Shown here piece by piece: positions 53,009 through 64,000 of a stretch of DNA of 64,000 nt. The DNA comes from Sulfurimonas sp. SAG-AH-194-I05. GTDB taxonomy: Bacteria > Campylobacterota > Campylobacteria > Campylobacterales > Sulfurimonadaceae. Both the position numbers and the translations under genes were made by a program. Positions within the stretch are counted from its first letter, which is position 1. The number at the start of each line of letters is the position of its first letter. The stretch is from NCBI RefSeq assembly GCF_029215955.1, contig NZ_JAEMVA010000002.1, positions 1-64,000 on the forward strand, given 5' to 3'. The notes under the pieces are model-generated. The model saw only the letters and a list, made by a program, of their open reading frames with translations, was not told the origin of the DNA and did no database searches.

Positions 53009-53299
53009 ATGATAAAAAATATTTTATTATCATCGTTAATGATTTTAGGTTTCACTAGCTCAGCAATAGCAGGAGTTGGAGATAAAACAATAGTAAAAAA
53101 TGTTCAAATTAACACTAATGTTCGATCTAATGGAAAAATAAATGTAGGGAATAATGCTAAGTTACAACTTGGTGCTATTAAAATCGGTGCTGGTTCTACT
53201 GTTGAGGGTGGTTCTATAAATTCTATGGTAGATACGAATGAAATCAAGTTAGGCAATGGTGCAAGCGCAGATATTGGCGGCGTTGATATTGGTCACTAA
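53009..53299 (+). CDS. Secreted 96-residue solenoid-repeat protein, copy 1
   Basis: A signal peptide (residues 1-21, ending SSAIAG) leaves a mature chain of about 75 residues. That chain is a run of short Val/Ile/Asn/Gly strands: KNVQINTNVRSNGKINVG, AKLQLGAIKIGAGSTVEGG, and the terminal ASADIGGVDIGH. No cysteines or charged catalytic residues are present. The pattern of alternating hydrophobic residues and small turns suggests a beta-solenoid or amyloid-prone subunit. AAAGGAG precedes the ATG. First gene of a ~9-kb co-directional operon with a CsgG-like exporter. Not recognised as a named family; subunit role is inference. Confidence 0.75.
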   Translation: MIKNILLSSLMILGFTSSAIAGVGDKTIVKNVQINTNVRSNGKINVGNNAKLQLGAIKIGAGSTVEGGSINSMVDTNEIKLGNGASADIGGVDIGH

Positions 53300-53336
53300 A
53301 AAAATTCGTAAAAATAAATTTTTATAAGGAAGTACA

Positions 53337-53627
53337 ATGATAAAAAATATTTTATTATCATCATTATTGGTTTTAGGTTTCACTAGCTCAGCAATAGCAG
53401 GAGTTGGAGATAAAACAATAGTAAAAAATGTTCAAATCAATACTGATGTTAGAGCTAATGGAAAAATAGATGTAGGGAATAATGCTAAGTTACAACTTGG
53501 TGCTATTAAAATTGGTGCTGGTTCTACTGTTGAGGGTGGTTCTATAAATTCTATGGTAGATACGCGTGAAATTAAGTTAGGCAATGGTGCAAGTGCAGAT
53601 ATCGGTGGCGTTGATATCGGTCACTAA
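53337..53627 (+). CDS. Secreted 96-residue solenoid-repeat protein, copy 2
   Basis: Almost identical to copy 1, with about 7 amino-acid changes (for example NTNVRSN to NTDVRAN, DTNEI to DTREI). Same signal peptide and same C-terminus IGGVDIGH. Own ribosome binding site (AAGGA). The pair resembles the duplicated subunit genes of curli (CsgA/CsgB) in arrangement, not in sequence. Followed by a strong hairpin at 53634-53659. Confidence 0.75.
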   Translation: MIKNILLSSLLVLGFTSSAIAGVGDKTIVKNVQINTDVRANGKIDVGNNAKLQLGAIKIGAGSTVEGGSINSMVDTREIKLGNGASADIGGVDIGH

Positions 53628-53633
53628 GCTCTC

Positions 53634-53659
53634 ATGCAAAAGGAAAAATCCTTTTGCAT
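53634..53659 (+). terminator. Strong hairpin after the subunit genes (attenuator)
   Basis: ATGCAAAAGGA (53634-53644) pairs perfectly over 11 bp with TCCTTTTGCAT (53649-53659). There is no long U-run, so it may be a partial terminator or an mRNA-stabilising 3' structure that raises expression of the two small proteins over the downstream genes. A second, imperfect repeat follows at about 53674-53707. Confidence 0.55.
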
Positions 53660-53730
53660 ATCAAAGTACTTAGTAGAATAATTTCAAAGGCAAAATCATT
53701 CTATTAAGCGCTATTCAAAGAAGGCTCAAT

Positions 53731-54369
53731 ATGATAATCAAATTACTACTCGTAGTACTTATACTACTATCACCTTTATTAGCAAAAGAAGATAAAGATC
53801 TTTTTTCTAAAGAAAAAATGGATAAAATGTCTGCCTATATAGTTAAAAAGTTTTATGATACTTCTAGGGCTAGAAGAAATACATCTTATATGTCTCAAGA
53901 TGAATATAGTTCTATTGAAAAAAAAGCAAAATTTTTAAAAGAGTATAAAAAAGAAAAGAAAACGAAAGCCTTTTATAAAGCAACGCTAGAGGCATACCAA
54001 GTATTTATAAAATCACATAGAACATACATCACAAAATGGAATGCGAAAAGCCGTTCTAAAACTTCTAACTTCTACAAACAAAATATTAAAAGTAATACAG
54101 AATTTTTAAATAAAGTGGCAAAGCATCTCAAGTATTTAAGTAAAAAAAATCCACAAGTAAAATCGTCTCTTACTAACAAATACACCCAATGGACAAAGAG
54201 TAAAGCATCCTTAAATGTCTCTACTGTAAACAAAAATAAAAGTATTGTAAATAAAGGAAAGGTATCCATTGAAGCATCACATTTAAGAACAACAGTAAAA
54301 GCGAGTACTATTACTTTAGCTCCAAAAGCTAAAGCATCTATAGGTTCTGTGTCTATTGGGAAGGAATAA
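53731..54369 (+). CDS. Secreted basic helical protein with solenoid tail
   Basis: 212 residues. Signal peptide (MIIKLLLVVLILLSPLLA), then a Lys-rich helical region (about 20-165; for example KFLKEYKKEKKTKAFYKATL), then a repeat tail (about 170-212) with KSIVNKGKVSIEA, VKASTITLA and the terminus KAKASIGSVSIGKE. The tail motif recurs in the other proteins of the operon. No known domain. 2 nt before the next gene. Confidence 0.7.
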   Translation: MIIKLLLVVLILLSPLLAKEDKDLFSKEKMDKMSAYIVKKFYDTSRARRNTSYMSQDEYSSIEKKAKFLKEYKKEKKTKAFYKATLEAYQVFIKSHRTYITKWNAKSRSKTSNFYKQNIKSNTEFLNKVAKHLKYLSKKNPQVKSSLTNKYTQWTKSKASLNVSTVNKNKSIVNKGKVSIEASHLRTTVKASTITLAPKAKASIGSVSIGKE

Positions 54370-54371
54370 CT

Positions 54372-55370
54372 TTGAAAAATATATGTTTATTTATTATTAC
54401 TTTAGTTCTCATTTCTAATATAGATGCTAAAGACACTCTTTTAAACGAACTTTACAAGAATGAAGTTTTATCTTATACACACAAAATTGCTCACTATGAC
54501 AAAAGAATACAACAATCTTCTTCAAATGCCTGGTTAATACCTCTTAAAAAAAAAGAAAGAGAAAAATTAGCAACATTTAAGAGTAATCATGCAAAAAATA
54601 AAGAAGCGAGTTTTAAAACTCTTTATGAAAAAGAAAAGAAAAAACTCTCTAGTCCCACTATACGTCGTACATTTAAAACAAAAACAGGTTCCATAAGTTA
54701 CTCTGTAAAAAAAACGTATGAAAAAAAGTTCAAAGATGCCTCACGTTTATTAAGCCTAAAAGAAGCATACAATAAACGAAACACAGCCAAAGCTATAATA
54801 GACTCCTTAGCCAAAAAGCATAACACAAATGCTCTTTCATCTTCAAGCGCGCCAAGTACAATAAAAGCAAGAAAAATAGTTACAGAATCTAAAAGATTTT
54901 CAAATGCATCAGCAAAACTCTCTGGAGCAACCAAATTATCACAAGGTCAATCTTCCTTAGCAGCACAATTAACTGCGAAACTAAATGCTATAATACGTAA
55001 ACCAAATGATGCAACACTAAAAAAATCAGCAGTTGTTCAAATGTCTCCCACTCCTATAGCACCACCACGTAGAACAAATCAAATTCCATTTAAAAGAACA
55101 ATATATCCACCTCCACCTAAACCAAAAAAAGTCACGCTAGCTTCTTCTGATTTAAATAACAACAAAACAGTCTTAAAAAATGTAACCATAAATACAAAAA
55201 CCAAAGCTGGAAACATCGATACAAAAGGAAAACTTAGTATGGCAAATGTAAAAATTGCAAAGGGAACCACTTTGAAAAATACAAATATTAACGCTAATGT
55301 TAAGGTAAAAAATGTTTCAATATCTAAAGGTTCAACAGCAGATATTGGTAGTGTAAATATTATAAAATAG
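54372..55370 (+). CDS. Secreted basic protein with Pro-rich linker and solenoid tail
   Basis: 332 residues from TTG. Signal peptide ending near NIDA, a Lys-rich helical part (20-200), a proline-rich linker (TPIAPPRRTNQIPF and YPPPPKPKK, about 222-250), and a tail with NKTVLKNVTINTKTKAG, SMANVKIAKGTTLKNTNI and terminus STADIGSVNIIK. Same three-part plan as the preceding gene, longer. GGAA lies 5 nt before the TTG. Confidence 0.7.
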   Translation: MKNICLFIITLVLISNIDAKDTLLNELYKNEVLSYTHKIAHYDKRIQQSSSNAWLIPLKKKEREKLATFKSNHAKNKEASFKTLYEKEKKKLSSPTIRRTFKTKTGSISYSVKKTYEKKFKDASRLLSLKEAYNKRNTAKAIIDSLAKKHNTNALSSSSAPSTIKARKIVTESKRFSNASAKLSGATKLSQGQSSLAAQLTAKLNAIIRKPNDATLKKSAVVQMSPTPIAPPRRTNQIPFKRTIYPPPPKPKKVTLASSDLNNNKTVLKNVTINTKTKAGNIDTKGKLSMANVKIAKGTTLKNTNINANVKVKNVSISKGSTADIGSVNIIK

Positions 55371-55378
55371 GAGTCCTC

Positions 55379-55894
55379 ATGAAAAGTAAATATTTTTTAG
55401 TAGCTTTAATACTTTTTGCATCAGTCAATGTGTACGCAGTTAATCAGGCGTATTTAAAAACTAAAATTAAAAATAGAGCACAAATGCAACAAGCAACAGG
55501 AGCTTTTAAATACTCCAAGTATAACTATGTATCACAAAGGGACATTAAAGCCGCTCGTTATAACAACAACGTAAACCTTGGTGTAGTAAATGTAAAAAGA
55601 GGGGAACAAGTTCGAGATGTAAATGTCTATGTAGACTCCAACTCAAGAATCGATATTTATAATAAAAGAGAGTCTAAGGTACAAGTAGGAGTTGTTAATG
55701 TTGAAAAAAATGCACGCCTACAAAGTGCAAATGTCGTAGTAAGAGCAAGAAATGGAATTAACATTCGACAACAGGCTGGAAATACAAAGAGAGTTTCTCA
55801 AATCGGTGTAGTAAATATGAGAAAAAGTTCAGCCGTTAAAAATATTAGTACACGTATTGATACAAATAAAAAAATAAAAATTAGTAATTATTAA
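55379..55894 (+). CDS. Secreted solenoid-repeat protein with three repeat units
   Basis: 171 residues with a signal peptide ending NVYA. Three repeats are visible: VNLGVVNVKRGEQVRDVNVY (about 62), VQVGVVNVEKNARLQSANVV (about 100) and SQIGVVNMRKSSAVKNIS (about 143). Each has I/V-G-V-V-N-V/M, a polar turn and V-x-x-x-(N/S)-V/I. It lacks the A-x-IG-x-V-x-I terminus and ends KKIKISNY. Starts 8 nt after the previous gene, followed 10 nt later by the CsgG-like gene. Confidence 0.7.
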   Translation: MKSKYFLVALILFASVNVYAVNQAYLKTKIKNRAQMQQATGAFKYSKYNYVSQRDIKAARYNNNVNLGVVNVKRGEQVRDVNVYVDSNSRIDIYNKRESKVQVGVVNVEKNARLQSANVVVRARNGINIRQQAGNTKRVSQIGVVNMRKSSAVKNISTRIDTNKKIKISNY

Positions 55895-55904
55895 AGGATT
55901 TACA

Positions 55905-57971
55905 ATGGTAAGTAATAAAATGATATTAGGACTAGGGGCAATGTTCTTTTTGTTAAATGGCTGTGGAGGAGCAACTGTTCAGCCAAAGATAGACAAAGCA
56001 AAAGAAAAAATCAAAGCACCAACAGTGCAAAGTACGGATTATGAGTCTTTTTTACGTAATATTGGAAATATGTATAGAGTATATTATGACCCAAAAACTC
56101 CCATTCCTTTTCAAAGTAAGCCTATTACAAATGACACAGGAACAGGTGGACTTCCTGTAGATGTTTCTAAAATGGTTATTACAGCAGTAAGTAAAATAGG
56201 AAAGCCCATAGTCTACATTCCTTATGATCCAAACTATTTAATAAATGAACTCAACACTGGTGGTGCTATTAACCGTGTAATGCCTAGGTATGTCATTAGC
56301 GGTGCCATTACTGAATACGACAAAGGTATTATGAGACAAAGTAGTGGTGGCGGTGTAGATTTCTTTGTGCCTTTTAGTGGTGGCGGAGCAGATGGAAGTG
56401 CTTCAAAAGATGACTCTACAACTGCATCAAGAATCGTCATGGACTTTTTTCTTATAGACTATGCTACACAAACTATGGTGTCGGGAGTGCAATCTACGAA
56501 AACTATTACTGTATATGAACAGTCAAAATCAAAAAATGTAGGGTTTTCTATTTTTGGAAGTGGCTTTGGAATCAATGGCTCTGTTTCAAGAAAACAAGGT
56601 GTACATGCAGCTTTACGACTACTTGTTGAACTCAGTATTGCAGAAATTATTTCAAAAGAAGCTGGTCTTCCATACTGGAAATTATCTAAAGATATCAAAG
56701 CCGATGAAGCAACAATAGATAAAATATACTTTGATATGGACGGACTAAGCGATGCTACAAAAATTGTTCTCATGAAAGAGTACTTAACAAAATACGGATT
56801 TAGAATAAATGATATTCAAGACCAAACACTTGATGCACAAACAGCAGCATACTATGAAGTCTTGCAAAAAGACTTGAATCTCGGTGCACTTGGTAATGGC
56901 TATATAAATACAACTGATTTAGTTACCTTGCATTTCAACTTACCATTTAAAAGAAGTGATAAAAAATATAATAATTCTATGGCGAAAAAAGTAACTATTA
57001 CACCAGCTCCCGTAGTAACACAGCGACATCAAACAGATCCTATTGACAACCTATTTTCCAATATTGATAAATTAAGTTCAATAGCATCTTCTGTTTATGT
57101 AGGCTCTATTGTAGATGCAAACGACATGTATAAAACACCATTCTCAGAAGCTTTAGAAGAAGGGATAAAAAAGTATATTCAACAAAATAAATCTTTAACA
57201 CTTAACGATAAACCTATTGATATTGGACAAAAAACACGTTCATTTAAGAAAAAGAAAAAAGTTGCTATTACCTCTAAACAAAACGTAGTAGAAGTTGTTG
57301 GTTATGTAGAAACTACAGAGAATGGAGTTGAAGTAGAACTTCAAGTATTAAGTAAAGATGCACAAAGATTACGGGTTATAAAAGAAACCTTTCCAATAAC
57401 TGCTCCAGTAGAACAAACGGCTCCAGAAGTTGAAAAAATCATTCCCCAAAAGTCCTATGCACCCCAAAGTTTAGATGCAATGCTACGTATCGCAAAATCT
57501 GATACAGAGATGAAAACTGACAATATCTTTTTTATGACAGATAAGGGTGACACACATCAAATTTACTTAGATGGTGAAAAAATTGAATTTGCACTAGGTA
57601 TTAGAGAAGCTTCTTATGCGTATATATTTGATATTGATTCAAACTTAGAAATAACAACCCTCTTTGACTCAACAACAGATATAGCCTCAAAAAAGTTACA
57701 ACCAGAAGAACTTTATACAATTCCATCTCCAGAAGCTGACTTTGAAATTATTGCTTCAGCTCCTTTTGGTACTGAACTTATTAAGCTCGTAATTTGTAGT
57801 GAACCTTTACATATACCAGAAGTTGTAAAAGCAACACGTTCATTTAAAAAAAGTTCTAAGTCAAATACAGTTGCACCAGAAGCATTTATAGACAACCTAA
57901 GAGCACAAGCTACAAAAAAAGGTGCCCTCATGTATGAAAAAACAATTCTTGTAGAAACAAGAGCAAAGTAA
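55905..57971 (+). CDS. CsgG-like outer-membrane lipoprotein with DUF4384-like C-terminus
   Basis: 688 residues. Lipobox LLNGC at residues 18-22. The CsgG/HfaB-like domain covers about residues 40-270: RYVISGAITEYDKGIM, a Gly/Ser-rich insertion, ASRIVMDFFLIDYATQTMVSG (the TGEV-type strand) and VHAALRLLVELSIAEII. Region 270-345 contains a peptidoglycan-binding-like fold (YLTKYGFRINDIQDQTLD). A C-terminal DUF4384-like domain (about 540-635) has MTDKGDTHQIYLDGEKI and ASYAYIFDIDSNLEI. CsgG forms the curli export pore; here it is the probable exporter for the solenoid proteins. The motif TRSFKK occurs at residues 444 and 644. Confidence 0.72.
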   Translation: MVSNKMILGLGAMFFLLNGCGGATVQPKIDKAKEKIKAPTVQSTDYESFLRNIGNMYRVYYDPKTPIPFQSKPITNDTGTGGLPVDVSKMVITAVSKIGKPIVYIPYDPNYLINELNTGGAINRVMPRYVISGAITEYDKGIMRQSSGGGVDFFVPFSGGGADGSASKDDSTTASRIVMDFFLIDYATQTMVSGVQSTKTITVYEQSKSKNVGFSIFGSGFGINGSVSRKQGVHAALRLLVELSIAEIISKEAGLPYWKLSKDIKADEATIDKIYFDMDGLSDATKIVLMKEYLTKYGFRINDIQDQTLDAQTAAYYEVLQKDLNLGALGNGYINTTDLVTLHFNLPFKRSDKKYNNSMAKKVTITPAPVVTQRHQTDPIDNLFSNIDKLSSIASSVYVGSIVDANDMYKTPFSEALEEGIKKYIQQNKSLTLNDKPIDIGQKTRSFKKKKKVAITSKQNVVEVVGYVETTENGVEVELQVLSKDAQRLRVIKETFPITAPVEQTAPEVEKIIPQKSYAPQSLDAMLRIAKSDTEMKTDNIFFMTDKGDTHQIYLDGEKIEFALGIREASYAYIFDIDSNLEITTLFDSTTDIASKKLQPEELYTIPSPEADFEIIASAPFGTELIKLVICSEPLHIPEVVKATRSFKKSSKSNTVAPEAFIDNLRAQATKKGALMYEKTILVETRAK

Positions 57972-57980
57972 GGAAAGAAA

Positions 57981-60900
57981 ATGAAATATTTATACATATT
58001 ACTCAGTGTTTTAATCCTTACTTCGTGTGGGACAAGTATGCCTCAGGTAAAAACTATCTCTAGTAGCCAAAAATCTGTTTTTATCATTAAACAGTACCCT
58101 ACAACTATTCCCTATCAAGGTAGTACGAATAGCATTATTAAAATGCCTGGAGAGGGAGAAAAAAATGCTCTTGGTGTTCAAATATCCCCAGAGTTAAAGA
58201 TTGCATACGATAATTATTTGAATGGTGATGGTCAAAAATCTCTCAAAGCTCTTAACATAGCAAATACTAAAACACAAGACACCCTCACTTTATTTCAAAT
58301 ATCTTCACTTAAAATTAGAGCATACATGCTAATGGGTGAAAATAAAGAAGCACATAAGGAAATAAAAAATCTCGCCAAGTATGAAATACAACATTTTAAA
58401 CATAACCTTAATGCATCAGCATTTAGAGGTGAAGTTCTTATGAGAGAAGGTAAGTTTGAAGAGTCAAGACAAGTTCTTCATAATGTTCTTAGTGAAATTG
58501 GTTCTTGGGAACTACCAACATCATATGGTTTACCCCCATCAAATATAGATGAACTCGTAGCAATGACAACAGCACAAATTCGATCTTACGTCGTAATTGC
58601 ATCATCTTATATGATGCAACATAAATATAAAGAGGCAAAAGTATGGGCTCAAGAAGCTGAAAGTAGACTCAATGCTGTCCACTATATTTCTAACCATGGG
58701 CTCTACGGAATCTTTTTTAAGTCATACCTTGATAGCTACTATGGTCGTGCAATGAATATGATCTTTTTAGCATCTGCTATTGTTGGAAGTACTGATAATG
58801 AAGAAAAAGCAAATTTTTATTATAATGAAGCTCTTAAATTATTTAAAAAAATTGGCTATAAAAAAGGTGAAATTTTTGTGCTTTCTTTTAAGAGACAAAC
58901 CTTAGATTATCTTCGAAAATATGATACATCAAAAATGGTACATTTACAAGGAAATAGTCTCCTCCCAAATTTTAAAAAAAATGCTAAAGAAAACAAAGGC
59001 TTATATAAAATTCAAAAGTATCCTGATGCAATCGCATATCAGGGTATAAACTCTCAAAGCGTTACTATGCCTAATATAAATGATAAAAATGCACTCGGCA
59101 TCATTATTACACCTGAGCTTAAAGTTGCTTATAACAACTACCTTGGTGGTGATGGAAATAAAGCGATGAAAGCACTTGAAATTGCACAAAATAATACAAA
59201 AGACACCTTAACTCTCTTTCAAATTTCATCCCTAAGAGTAAGAGTTTTAATGCTAAAAGGAATGGATGCTGATGTTCATGAAGAATTAAAATCTTTATCT
59301 CTCTATGAAAATAAACATTTTTCACATAACTTAAATACACTCGCTTTTAAAGGTGAAGTCTTAGTAAGAGAAGGAAGATTAGAAGAAGCAAGAGAAATAT
59401 TTAACAAAGTATTAAATAGTATTGGAGACTGGAACATACCAATAAAATATGGTGTACCACCATCTAATATTTCAGCACTTGTTGCTACAACTACTGCACA
59501 AATAAGGTCAATGGTCGGTATGAGTGGCTCTTATATTATGCAAAACAAATACAAAGAAGCTGAGATTTGGGCAGTAGAAACAGAGAAAAGAATAAATGCT
59601 GTACATTACCTCTCTGCACATCCCTTATATTCAACATATTTTAATTCTTACCTTGATAGTTATTATGGCCGGGCTATGAATATGATTTTCTTATCTGCTT
59701 CTCTTTTGGGTAGTGATACTGATAGAGAAAAATCAGAATATTATCATCTTGAAGCACTTCGATTTTTTCAAAAAATTAGTTATGAAAAAGGTGAGATTAT
59801 AGCCTTAGCAATTAGGTCACAAACTCTCTTTTACCTTAAGCAATATGAAAAAGCAGATGCTATTGCACTCCAAGCTATTAAACTTGCTAATAAAAAGAAA
59901 ATGTATGATTTTATTTGGAGAATCGAAACTTTACGTGGGAAAATTTTACTCGAAAACAAAGAAATTGATGCTGCACAAATCGCCTTTGTAAATGCTGCAA
60001 ATGTAATCGACTTAGTAAGCGGAGACCTAAAAACAGACTTTTCTAAAAGAAGGTTTGGTACAGGTAAAGACGATTTAGTTTATAACCTAATGCAAATTAA
60101 TCTTACAAAGAAAAACTACCAACAACTGTTCGTAGATGTAGAGAATGGTCGTGCACGTGCCTTTGTAGATATTATGCGTAATAGAGCAGTTTCTCCAAGT
60201 AATAGTGGACGATTAGAGAGTATTCGTGCTATAGATAAAAAGATTAAAAAACTCATCATTCAAAATTACTCTTTTGGAAATATGCATACTAATGTAAATA
60301 TGAAAGAACAAGATAAACTTCGAAAACAACGCGCTATTTTAGTTCAAGAATTAGTAAAACTGGAACCTCAGGCTTCTTCTATAATCACATCAAAGCACTA
60401 CAGTTTACAAGAAATTCAAAAAGGCTTAAAAAATACAGAAAGTATTTTATATTTTTTACCTGTAAAAGCAAATGATAAAATAAAAGCACTTTACATTTCA
60501 CATGCCAACGTAAGGTTAAAAACATTTGCAATAACAGGAAAGGAACTTTCAAATATTATGAAGAGTTACCTTATCAAAATTGGGGCTTATGATAATTCAC
60601 TCAATACTCAAATGCGTTCTTTTAAAAAGAAAAATAAACGTGTAGATGCAGCAGGAGGGAAAGTAAAAGAACCACTCAACGTTCTTCACACAAGATTACC
60701 TCTTAGAGATATTCAAACAAAAAGACTTTACATAGTTGGAAGTGGAGCAACAACTTATGTTCCATGGGCAACATACAATAAATCATTAGAAATTTCTTTG
60801 TTACCAAATGCAAGTTGGATTCTAAATACTTCAAAAAAATCACATGCTAAAAATGTAGTTATTGTTGGAAACCCTAACTATGGTGGAGAACTTGACCAAC

Positions 60901-61433
60901 TGCAAGGAACAGTTAAAGAAGCACAAAGCTTAGCGAAAATTTATAATGTTAAACCTCTTCTTTATAAGAATGCTACATTGAAAAATATTACAAAAAATAT
61001 TGGAGATGGTGCTAAAATACTTCACCTTGCTACACACGGAGTATTCTATACTGATAAACCATTAGATTCTGCAATCTTTCTCTCTAAAGACTCCAAGCTT
61101 TATACACTAACTGCCAAAGAAATTTTCAAAAATCCTATAAAAGCGGATCTTGTAGTACTCTCAGCATGTGAAACGGGAATGGGAGCAAATGTAGCAGGAG
61201 ATGATTTACTAGGACTTCCACGAAGTTTCTTTTTGGGAGGTACAAAGGCAATCCTTAGTAGTCTATGGCCTATTGACGATGAGGGTACAAAAGAGTTTAT
61301 GACTGAGTTTCATAAGTATGCAAAAGAAGGAGAGTATGAAAAAGGTCTCCTTAAAGCAAAAGAGCATTTAAAAGCTAAAGGCTACCCTGCTTCTGTTTAT
61401 GGTGCTTTTGTTCTTTATGGTATGAGTTTATAA
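57981..61433 (+). CDS. TPR-CHAT lipoprotein protease with duplicated N-terminal halves
   Basis: 1150 residues. Lipoprotein signal (LLSVLILTSCG). Two homologous ~300-residue segments follow (about 27-315 and 335-625), each containing QYP...IPYQG or KYP...IAYQG, a TPR-like array with DTLTLFQISSL and a shared SYLDSYYGRAMNMIFL. TPR-like helices continue to about 720. The CHAT domain (about 880-1150) has the catalytic His1019 in HLATHGVFY and Cys1063 in LSACETGMG, plus SSLWPIDDEGT. CHAT proteases are caspase relatives; some are activated through TPRs. Lipidation and operon neighbours place it in the cell envelope, possibly processing the exported proteins. Confidence 0.88.
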   Translation: MKYLYILLSVLILTSCGTSMPQVKTISSSQKSVFIIKQYPTTIPYQGSTNSIIKMPGEGEKNALGVQISPELKIAYDNYLNGDGQKSLKALNIANTKTQDTLTLFQISSLKIRAYMLMGENKEAHKEIKNLAKYEIQHFKHNLNASAFRGEVLMREGKFEESRQVLHNVLSEIGSWELPTSYGLPPSNIDELVAMTTAQIRSYVVIASSYMMQHKYKEAKVWAQEAESRLNAVHYISNHGLYGIFFKSYLDSYYGRAMNMIFLASAIVGSTDNEEKANFYYNEALKLFKKIGYKKGEIFVLSFKRQTLDYLRKYDTSKMVHLQGNSLLPNFKKNAKENKGLYKIQKYPDAIAYQGINSQSVTMPNINDKNALGIIITPELKVAYNNYLGGDGNKAMKALEIAQNNTKDTLTLFQISSLRVRVLMLKGMDADVHEELKSLSLYENKHFSHNLNTLAFKGEVLVREGRLEEAREIFNKVLNSIGDWNIPIKYGVPPSNISALVATTTAQIRSMVGMSGSYIMQNKYKEAEIWAVETEKRINAVHYLSAHPLYSTYFNSYLDSYYGRAMNMIFLSASLLGSDTDREKSEYYHLEALRFFQKISYEKGEIIALAIRSQTLFYLKQYEKADAIALQAIKLANKKKMYDFIWRIETLRGKILLENKEIDAAQIAFVNAANVIDLVSGDLKTDFSKRRFGTGKDDLVYNLMQINLTKKNYQQLFVDVENGRARAFVDIMRNRAVSPSNSGRLESIRAIDKKIKKLIIQNYSFGNMHTNVNMKEQDKLRKQRAILVQELVKLEPQASSIITSKHYSLQEIQKGLKNTESILYFLPVKANDKIKALYISHANVRLKTFAITGKELSNIMKSYLIKIGAYDNSLNTQMRSFKKKNKRVDAAGGKVKEPLNVLHTRLPLRDIQTKRLYIVGSGATTYVPWATYNKSLEISLLPNASWILNTSKKSHAKNVVIVGNPNYGGELDQLQGTVKEAQSLAKIYNVKPLLYKNATLKNITKNIGDGAKILHLATHGVFYTDKPLDSAIFLSKDSKLYTLTAKEIFKNPIKADLVVLSACETGMGANVAGDDLLGLPRSFFLGGTKAILSSLWPIDDEGTKEFMTEFHKYAKEGEYEKGLLKAKEHLKAKGYPASVYGAFVLYGMSL

Positions 61434-61444
61434 GCTAAATAGCT

Positions 61445-62188
61445 ATGAAATACTTTGTATTATTTTTCATTATTAGTGTCAGTCTTTTTGCCAATGTGGG
61501 AAAAATTATACTGCTTAAGGGAAAAGCAACCATTCTAAGAGAAAAAAATATCATCCAAGCGAAGCTTGGTGATACAATTTTTACTAACGATAAGATAGAT
61601 ACATACAAAAAAACTAAACTAAAGATTATTTTAAATGATAACACAACCCTAACCTTTGGTCAAAATACAGAATATACACTTGATGCATACAATGATAAAA
61701 AAAATCCAAAATTAGAAATGACGCTCCTAAGTGGTCTTCTCACAACTGTAAGTGGAAGAATAGGAAAAATTGCACCACATAAATTTAAACTACGAACAAA
61801 AACTGCTCTTATTGGAATTCGTGGTACGCACTGGAGAACTTTTGTAGGTAAACGCTACGAAAATAGTGTTTGTTTTAAAGGTGCTATAACAATTAAAACA
61901 GCAAAAAAACGTTTTGAAATTCCTTCTGGATATATGCTTATAACTAAAGATGGAGTATCTCAAAAATTTAAAATGAATATGAAATTCTATAATTCACTTT
62001 TAAAAAGAGCCCAAGCAAAACAAAAATTAAAAGTAGTGTCAACACAAGTATCACAAACTAAAGATCCTAGAATAGAAACAAATACTATTCAAGTTCAAAA
62101 TGCAAACCTCAACACAAATGTAAAAATAAACAATGTAAATGTCTCTTCCAAAGCATCTGCCACTATTGGAACAATAAAACTTGACTAA
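61445..62188 (+). CDS. FecR-domain periplasmic protein with solenoid tail
   Basis: 247 residues with a signal peptide (ending LFAN). FecR domain about residues 20-160: GDTIFTNDKIDTYKKTKLKI, LNDNTTLTFGQNTEYTLD and FKLRTKTALIGIRGTHWRT. No sigma factor or TonB-type signalling gene is adjacent, so it belongs to the secreted FecR group rather than an anti-sigma factor. The C-terminus carries the operon motif: NANLNTNVKINNVNVSS followed by ATIGTIKLD. Last gene of the operon, 11 nt after the CHAT gene. 62189-62273 holds only promoter-like A/T-rich sequence and AAGGTAG. Confidence 0.82.
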   Translation: MKYFVLFFIISVSLFANVGKIILLKGKATILREKNIIQAKLGDTIFTNDKIDTYKKTKLKIILNDNTTLTFGQNTEYTLDAYNDKKNPKLEMTLLSGLLTTVSGRIGKIAPHKFKLRTKTALIGIRGTHWRTFVGKRYENSVCFKGAITIKTAKKRFEIPSGYMLITKDGVSQKFKMNMKFYNSLLKRAQAKQKLKVVSTQVSQTKDPRIETNTIQVQNANLNTNVKINNVNVSSKASATIGTIKLD

Positions 62189-62273
62189 TCCTACCTCTCC
62201 GTAAAAAACAACCTAACACTTATGTAACAGTTCTTTTATACTATTGCAAGATATTATAAAAGAAGGTAGTTTT

Positions 62274-64000
62274 ATGAACAAAATTATTCCATTATCTTTA
62301 GTTGCTATTGTATCTTTATATGCAACTGAAGTCTATTTAGCGCCTATTGGTGTTGAGTCAACTGTTATTACAGAAGTTGCTGAGAAAGCTGAAACATCAG
62401 CTGATGTGGCTGTTGCTATTAGTTCAAGAGTTCCAAGTATCGACATGAGCCGTCGTAGTGGCATTGCAAATGACATTCTCATTCGAGGGCAAAAAAGAGA
62501 TAATATTTCTATAGAAGTCGATGGAACAAAAATAAATGGTGCGTGTCCAAATAGAATGGATCCTCCAACTTCTCACATTTTAGCAAACCAAATCGAGACA
62601 ATCGAAGTTACAGAGGGTCCTTATGATGTTGCAACCTTTGGTGTTATGAGCGGTGGTGTAAAAATAAAAACTAAAAAACCTACAAAAAACTTTAAAGGTG
62701 AAGTAAATGTTGGTATGGGTAGTTTTGGATACCAAAAATTAGGTGCTACTGTAAGTGGTGGGAATGACCTTATACGTGTCTCTATCACAGCATCAACTGA
62801 AAAAAGTGACCAATATAAAGACGGTAATGGCGATACTTTTGCAGAGCAAATTATAAACTCCCCAACAGCACCAGCTACAGCACGTTACCAAACCCAGTAC
62901 CAAGATATGCAAGCGTATACAAAGAAAAGTATTATGGCAAAAGCATTTATTACAGTCACAGACAACCAAGAGCTTCGTTTAAGTGTTACAGCAAACAGAA
63001 GTGACGATATTTTATATGCAAATTCTACAATGGATGCACTGTATGATGATTCTAATATTTACAGTATCGAGTACAACATTAACACGCTAACTGATGTGTA
63101 CAGCAACATGAATCTTCAGTATTATTACTCTGATGTTGATCATCCCATGGCTACTACATATAGAGATGCTTCGCTTGGTACAAACCCTGTTATTAAAAAC
63201 TGGTTGACTACTGAGATGCAAGGTCTAAAATTTAAAAATACTTTTGATATACAAGGACATAAGATTCTTGTTGGGATAGATGGTAGTAAACGAACATGGG
63301 ATGGACACTATGAAAGCGATAACCTTCCCTTGGCTACTGGACGTAAAAGTATAGACAATGCAGTAACAAAAAATACAGCAATCTTCTCCAAACTTAGTAA
63401 GTCTGTTGGTGAAGTTGATTTTACTTTTGGTGCAAGATATGACTATACAAAAATAACAAATGATGGTGGGTTTCAAAATAATAATTACTCTGGTATAAAT
63501 GCGAATCTTACAACTACGCTTAACCTTGACAAAGAAAGTAAAGTCTTTTTTGCTTTTGGACAAGCTAAACGTGTCCCAGATGCAAGAGAACTTTACTTTA
63601 GAGGCTCGCAAAACAATGTAGTTGGCACGCAAGATTTAAAACAAACTACAAATAGAGAAATCGATGTAGGTTACGAAATAGCAACAGATGCATATAGTGC
63701 TAAAGTAAAAAGTTTTTACTCCCGTCTTAGTGATTATATTTACATTCAAAAGGGTGTAAGTGTACGTGCTTTTCAAAACATCGACGCTATTGTATATGGT
63801 ATGGAAGTAAGCGGTGAATACTATGTAAGTGATGACATTACAGTAGAAGCTTCTGCCTCGTATAAGGTTGGTAAAAAAGACAATGCTCTCGCGGGACAAA
63901 CAGACACTGACTTAGCAGACATCGCTCCACTTCGTGCAAATATCACTACTACATACGAGTACGCAAATCACTCAAGTGTTTCTGCTGAGATTCAAGCAAG
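62274..64000 (+). CDS. oprC: TonB-dependent receptor, copper (OprC/NosA) type, 3' end outside window
   Basis: 575 codons to the window edge, C-terminus missing. Signal peptide (MNKIIPLSLVAIVSLYA), then a plug domain with RRSGIANDILIRGQKRDN, EVDGTKINGACPNRMDPPTS and IETIEVTEGPYDV. CPNRMDPPT is diagnostic of the copper receptor branch; in OprC a CxxxM motif of this kind binds Cu. Beta-barrel strands follow. The TonB box is not distinct. It probably imports copper for respiratory enzymes such as nitrous-oxide reductase or cytochrome oxidase, balancing the Cus efflux system at 37-43 kb. Separate promoter likely. Confidence 0.85.
   Translation, partial: MNKIIPLSLVAIVSLYATEVYLAPIGVESTVITEVAEKAETSADVAVAISSRVPSIDMSRRSGIANDILIRGQKRDNISIEVDGTKINGACPNRMDPPTSHILANQIETIEVTEGPYDVATFGVMSGGVKIKTKKPTKNFKGEVNVGMGSFGYQKLGATVSGGNDLIRVSITASTEKSDQYKDGNGDTFAEQIINSPTAPATARYQTQYQDMQAYTKKSIMAKAFITVTDNQELRLSVTANRSDDILYANSTMDALYDDSNIYSIEYNINTLTDVYSNMNLQYYYSDVDHPMATTYRDASLGTNPVIKNWLTTEMQGLKFKNTFDIQGHKILVGIDGSKRTWDGHYESDNLPLATGRKSIDNAVTKNTAIFSKLSKSVGEVDFTFGARYDYTKITNDGGFQNNNYSGINANLTTTLNLDKESKVFFAFGQAKRVPDARELYFRGSQNNVVGTQDLKQTTNREIDVGYEIATDAYSAKVKSFYSRLSDYIYIQKGVSVRAFQNIDAIVYGMEVSGEYYVSDDITVEASASYKVGKKDNALAGQTDTDLADIAPLRANITTTYEYANHSSVSAEIQA

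Follow-up and report, generated by a model that had tools for sequence, protein, structure and literature searches.

Among the gates through which self-assembling proteins are exported, CsgG is the one best understood, and most CsgG-like genes that lie outside curli systems lack an explanation. Non-curli CsgG matches point to a larger protein family (Dueholm et al. 2012, PMC3521004). In Caulobacter, the CsgG-like protein HfaB localizes HfaA and HfaD, which hold the polysaccharide of the holdfast (PMC6707917). In the genome of Sulfurimonas sp. SAG-AH-194-I05 (an assembly of 110 contigs), an operon of eight genes, all on the + strand of the ORF list, occupies positions 53009-62188 of the window, the 64,000-nucleotide stretch of DNA that was analysed (Table 1). 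It provides the non-curli CsgG branch with a possible family of substrates, a possible anchor that carries their repeat and a protease of the caspase type; because all are encoded in one operon, substrate, anchor and regulator are directly testable. That the operon is a CsgG-type locus exporting a non-curlin repeat family has good support and is, in our judgement, highly probable. The wider account, in which the operon serves outer-membrane secretion and surface assembly built on a CsgG-family pore and the detail of the protease step is not insisted on, is the reading we favour (probability roughly 0.6).

Table 1 Features of the operon (positions in the window)
Feature	Positions	Strand	Description
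Gene 1	53009-53299	+	96-aa secreted protein; signal peptide and two ~34-aa repeats; candidate exported subunit
Gene 2	53337-53627	+	96-aa near-duplicate of gene 1
Spacer	53628-53730	+	103 nt with two strong hairpins; candidate mRNA stabilizer or processing element between subunit and machinery genes
Gene 3	53731-54369	+	212-aa secreted protein; Lys-rich N-terminal part; one degenerate C-terminal repeat (about 54274-54366)
Gene 4	54372-55370	+	332-aa secreted protein; TTG start; two gene-1-type repeats in the last 75 residues (55143-55367)
Gene 5	55379-55894	+	171-aa secreted protein; conserved segment after the signal peptide; repeat-like segments
Gene 6	55905-57971	+	Lipoprotein; CsgG-fold (about 56037-56690), peptidoglycan-binding-like (about 56706-56951), alpha/beta region, DUF4384 (57564-57803)
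Gene 7	57981-61433	+	Lipoprotein; duplicated TPR half; predicted CHAT protease domain (60711-61331) with His1019 (ATHG) and Cys1063 (SACETG)
Gene 8	61445-62188	+	Secreted FecR-domain protein (FecR 61589-61885); one terminal subunit repeat (about 62084-62185)

From gene 1 to gene 8, the intergenic gaps measure 37, 103, 2, 8, 10, 9 and 11 nt. By inspection, every product has a signal-peptide-like start, six with ordinary signal peptides and those of genes 6 (LLNGC) and 7 (LTSC) with lipoboxes. An earlier, sequence-only reading of this DNA had described eight co-directional genes with these gaps, all encoding exported or lipidated products, and both the ORF coordinates and the N termini bear it out. 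It had also placed a hairpin in the 103-nt gap, where folding gave two strong ones (-31.4 kcal/mol, z -5.85); a terminator scan of this gap called none. Hairpins of this kind between the subunit and machinery genes, free of a called terminator, are consistent with higher subunit expression without proving it. Directly 3' of the operon lies a TonB-dependent receptor-like gene (62244-64000).

Genes 1-5 gave no convincing match in Pfam. Going beyond the sequence-only reading, we found that genes 1, 2, 4 and 8, and possibly genes 3 and 5 with weaker similarity, share a C-terminal repeat of ~34 residues with a rough consensus across loci of S.V..S.I.N......VK.GKNS.A.IGSV.I. Two copies each are present in genes 1, 2 and 4, one in gene 8 and a degenerate one in gene 3; the proteins of genes 1 and 2 are 94% identical (their genes agree at 274 of 291 nt; 10 of the differing codons are synonymous and 6 nonsynonymous). 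A 34-residue HMM built from the repeats of two related loci (L018 and L019) alone was too narrow: it ranked genes 1 and 2 highly, yet not far from the shuffled noise. It was replaced by phmmer, with E-values scaled to a database size of 100,000 and shuffled-sequence controls. The best shuffled match for the reported queries had an E-value of 5-40. Gene 1 matched gene 4 at 2e-5, and the C terminus of gene 8 matched gene 1 at 0.003, its four best non-self matches being genes 1, 2, 4 and 3. The best matches of gene 3 were genes 1, 2 and 8, all at noise level, and it is their rank order that supports its repeat; the similarity of gene 5 to gene 1 was likewise at noise level and not significant.

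A seven-repeat subunit from locus L018 matched gene 2 (phmmer E 4e-5) and a 93-residue protein of a second phylum (L086, E 0.002). It was predicted to fold as a regular beta-solenoid, with pLDDT about 98 over the repeats; each turn of 34 residues has two long strands and a short one. A Foldseek search of this model against PDB returned no match at E≤0.001 (TM-scores about 0.1-0.2). The earlier description of the small proteins as solenoid and subunit-like is thus supported by the shared repeat and by this confident prediction for a homologue. The ~34-residue repeats of the subunits encoded here would likewise form a beta-solenoid, with genes 1 and 2 providing the major subunits and genes 4 and 3 minor or adaptor proteins, all presumably exported by Sec.

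Gene 6 would provide the pore. Its Pfam matches were DUF4384 (1.8e-12) and CsgG (4e-4; 20.1 bits against a cut-off of 20.8, which its relatives exceed). When its AlphaFold model (moderate mean pLDDT of 65.9, with the core better predicted) was searched against PDB by Foldseek, CsgG chains took the first 25 places (E 1.2e-8 to 2.4e-5), ahead of PelC, FlgT and further proteins of the broader fold. A profile of eight gene 6 relatives also had CsgG as its best PDB match (profile positions 10-197, E 0.0013), and its C-terminal segment weakly matched a peptidoglycan-binding protein (E 0.049), a segment of gene 6 that the earlier reading had not described. Pfam PG_binding_1 occurs at the equivalent place in gene 6 relatives, up to 1e-11, the value obtained for a single Azospirillum ramasamyi protein that combines CsgG, PG_binding and DUF4384. 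Four long strands in the gene 6 model (129-144, 172-185, 190-206 and 211-228) follow the order expected for two membrane hairpins. Together with the fold and the N-terminal lipidation indicated by the lipobox, these modelled hairpins assign gene 6 to the CsgG family (PF03783) by prediction. The sequence-only reading had made its system idea depend partly on a structural match of this protein to CsgG or HfaB, and CsgG was clearly matched by both fold and profile. Subunits would pass the outer membrane via a gene 6 ring, tied to the cell wall by the peptidoglycan-binding-like domain, and then stack or pack on the surface; that they assemble there is a reasonable inference. Gene 5, which adjoins the pore gene, would be a likely pore-associated starter, like CsgF or CsgB in role only.

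Small two-repeat subunits and a FecR anchor would suit a platform as well as a fibre, and the CsgG-like exporter and repeat proteins could instead form a holdfast-type anchor that binds polysaccharide without building long fibres, as HfaB does with the polysaccharide-holding HfaA and HfaD that it localizes in Caulobacter (PMC6707917). We regard this as unlikely, as the HfaB equivalog model (NF037935) gave no match to gene 6 and E 0.12 to one relative, HfaD (NF037936) was absent from the source genome with a positive Caulobacter control, and the operon has no polysaccharide genes.

Secretion and surface assembly through a CsgG-family pore, the favoured reading, has a core that recurs in other genomes. 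It consists of a repeat subunit, a CsgG-like lipoprotein and a small secreted protein and is found in Campylobacterota and in a second phylum; repeat-type subunit and CsgG genes occur together in L018, L019, L016, L022, L023, L040, L045, L047 and L086. L018 and L019 (on the same contigs as L042 and L043, respectively) belong to Campylobacterota MAGs of the same order as the source, Campylobacterales. Each is a compact operon in which a gene 5-like gene and a CsgG-like gene accompany a 95-aa gene and the gene for a seven-repeat subunit; these subunits are homologues of the gene 1 and gene 2 products, and gene 5 homologues lie within both operons. L086 represents the second phylum, to which a Desulfovibrionaceae MAG belongs; its genes specify a CsgG-like lipoprotein, a small secreted protein and a protein of 93 aa that has two repeats and ends in MGSVDIK. 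CsgG-family matches were found in 7 of 397 Campylobacterota genomes and 5 of 247 genomes of the second phylum; the system is sparse and patchy, for which horizontal movement would be a natural explanation. An organism-named scan with gene 6 alone returned no relatives; alignment A1 gave no usable pattern, and alignment A3 gave six named loci. Homology of gene 5 across phyla was tried with hhalign on its Azospirillum counterpart and gave nothing, and the 97-aa two-repeat neighbour of that counterpart was not significantly similar to gene 1. For this reason, only the CsgG-peptidoglycan-binding-DUF4384 protein is taken to be shared with Azospirillum. Elsewhere, L024 and L025 contain paired CsgG-like genes within stretches of small lipoproteins; L025 also encodes a protein that, judged by eye, is TIR/SEFIR-like. 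The expectation that the gene set would be conserved together thus held for the core, in other genomes and another phylum, and failed for the full set with CHAT and FecR, which was found in the source strain only.

The FecR protein named in the earlier reading was recovered by Pfam (gene 8, 3.5e-9). A second, larger CsgG-family operon in the source genome (L016; contig C24, 277-13308) encodes DUF6844, a CsgG/FlgT-like protein, two DUF1425 proteins, an ankyrin protein and a gene 5-like protein, together with a CsgG-like protein, an NMT1-like protein, a left-handed-helix-type subunit and FecR fused to subunit repeats. Its gene order is largely kept in L039 and L045 and partly in L023. The C-terminal repeats of this FecR protein matched the subunit of its own locus (phmmer E 4e-23) and, at E 2e-43, a subunit of 503 aa from a Sulfurospirillum MAG. 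In both loci, therefore, FecR is fused to the local subunit repeat, which is the strongest argument that gene 8 is part of the system and binds the assembly. Given the FecR domain joined to one copy of the subunit repeat, gene 8 probably caps or anchors the assembly, and anchoring can reasonably be inferred. Among the loci examined, FecR proteins similar to gene 8 occur in the source genome only, so FecR coupling is not general. On the contig just past the window (L017, 4309-8538), a secreted 853-aa FecR protein and a 554-aa TPR/barrel-like protein are encoded on the opposite strand; the 853-aa protein is matched by the FecR part of gene 8 (E 1e-27) and shows no subunit repeat.

Gene 7 had been read as a TPR-CHAT protein, and this was confirmed by Pfam (CHAT 1.3e-39, plus TPRs), the lipobox and an intact catalytic dyad; with the CHAT domain (PF12770) and both catalytic residues, it is a protease by prediction. 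Its TPR half proved to be internally duplicated (167 of 303 aligned positions identical), a feature absent from the earlier reading. CHAT is rare in the phylum (12 of 397 genomes) and mostly away from CsgG, as would be expected if export were the work of genes 1-6 and gene 7, alone or along with gene 8, were an unrelated, co-transcribed neighbour. Such a chance neighbourhood is improbable given gaps of only 9 and 11 nt, the subunit repeat of gene 8 with the same FecR-repeat fusion in L016, and the C14 caspases that accompany CsgG and DUF4384 elsewhere. The last combination occurs in other genomes: one operon (L038, 5710-8888) combines a CsgG-like gene with those for a DUF4384 lipoprotein and for a C14 caspase that itself has a DUF4384-like stretch, and the A. 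ramasamyi gene belongs to a run of co-directional genes that also encodes a C14-FGE protein. The annotation of A. lipoferum shows no caspase close to its CsgG-peptidoglycan-binding-DUF4384 gene. A caspase-clan protease was detected in 3 of 24 inspected CsgG-family loci, all three among the five with DUF4384, a count made after the fact with a C14 scan of low sensitivity. Beside CsgG, neither CHAT nor FecR was found outside the source genome, and the role of CHAT and FecR may therefore be local. DUF4384 was rejected as a caspase-only marker, as two of the four phylum genomes (of 397) that carry it have it in non-CsgG proteins. One further genome (G100; L020, L088, L090, L092 and L094-L097) has ten C14 caspase matches and, close to a WD40 protein truncated by the contig end, a CsgG-DUF4384 gene; this WD40 neighbour (in L020) was considered as a caspase and set aside because the contig ends there.

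The protease could also be the effector of an envelope surveillance or conflict system: when the surface is attacked or wrongly assembled, it would become active and open or cut the CsgG-like pore, harming or killing the cell. DUF4384 is a frequent caspase accessory (it makes up 23 of the accessory-domain cases among 473 cyanobacterial orthocaspases; PMC8283722), C14 caspases occur in the CsgG and DUF4384 loci just described, and TPR-CHAT proteases act in CRISPR defence. Nevertheless, PADLOC anti-phage models gave only matches at E>0.01, the protease is lipidated and exported, subunit genes make up most of the operon and such a protease went undetected in most CsgG-family loci; we consider this role for gene 7 very unlikely. 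Under the favoured export-and-assembly reading, gene 7 would stay close to the pore, with DUF4384 as a possible tether, and would cleave subunits, anchor or gate, leading to quality control or release. Processing or releasing subunits would be the most likely role for a lipidated protease in this operon, and we propose it tentatively; that it checks or matures subunits, as the sequence-only reading had it, is a guess. More doubtful is the complete scheme, a protease-controlled CsgG system in which DUF4384 would couple the pore to a protease of the caspase clan (CHAT in this operon, C14 in others), and this protease would process or release beta-solenoid subunits that are neither curlin nor Fap, with the FecR protein co-assembling via the shared repeat and anchoring them.

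Compared with known systems, the operon resembles curli in its CsgG-fold outer-membrane lipoprotein encoded with small secreted repeat proteins, but its repeat is a different 34-aa unit, its exporter adds peptidoglycan-binding-like and DUF4384 segments, and the operon adds TPR-CHAT and FecR genes. The curlin repeat (PF07012) and CsgF (PF10614) were absent from the source and five related genomes, with positive E. coli controls; among the eight operon proteins, CsgE (PF10627) gave no match at E≤1 and Fap (FapA-F) no Pfam match. The Caulobacter anchor HfaABD likewise pairs a CsgG-like protein with co-encoded surface multimer proteins, but its subunits are others, and no protease or FecR gene is described for it in the literature consulted. 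A literature search, whose coverage excludes most subscription journals and is thus no proof, found no paper on CsgG with DUF4384 or with FecR. Gene 7 shares with TPR-CHAT proteases (the Craspase subunit, separase clan) a TPR array followed by CHAT with a His/Cys dyad, yet it is lipidated and exported and has no gRAMP or CRISPR partner, its partners being a pore and surface subunits. One other genome of the same order encodes a TPS exoprotein, ShlB, TPR-CHAT and DUF928 in one operon (L071, 1291-8180); there too the TPR-CHAT gene sits directly with those for an outer-membrane exporter and the exported substrate, whereas the exporter is of the ShlB/FhaC type and the substrate a TPS exoprotein. 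The FecR region of gene 8 weakly matches retention_LapA (E 1e-4) and LipL45/Lsa33, which links it to LapA-type retention and FecR surface proteins, but it scores far below the curated cut-offs. The core of pore and repeat proteins is none of the described curli or holdfast systems; it is a variant of CsgG-type secretion.
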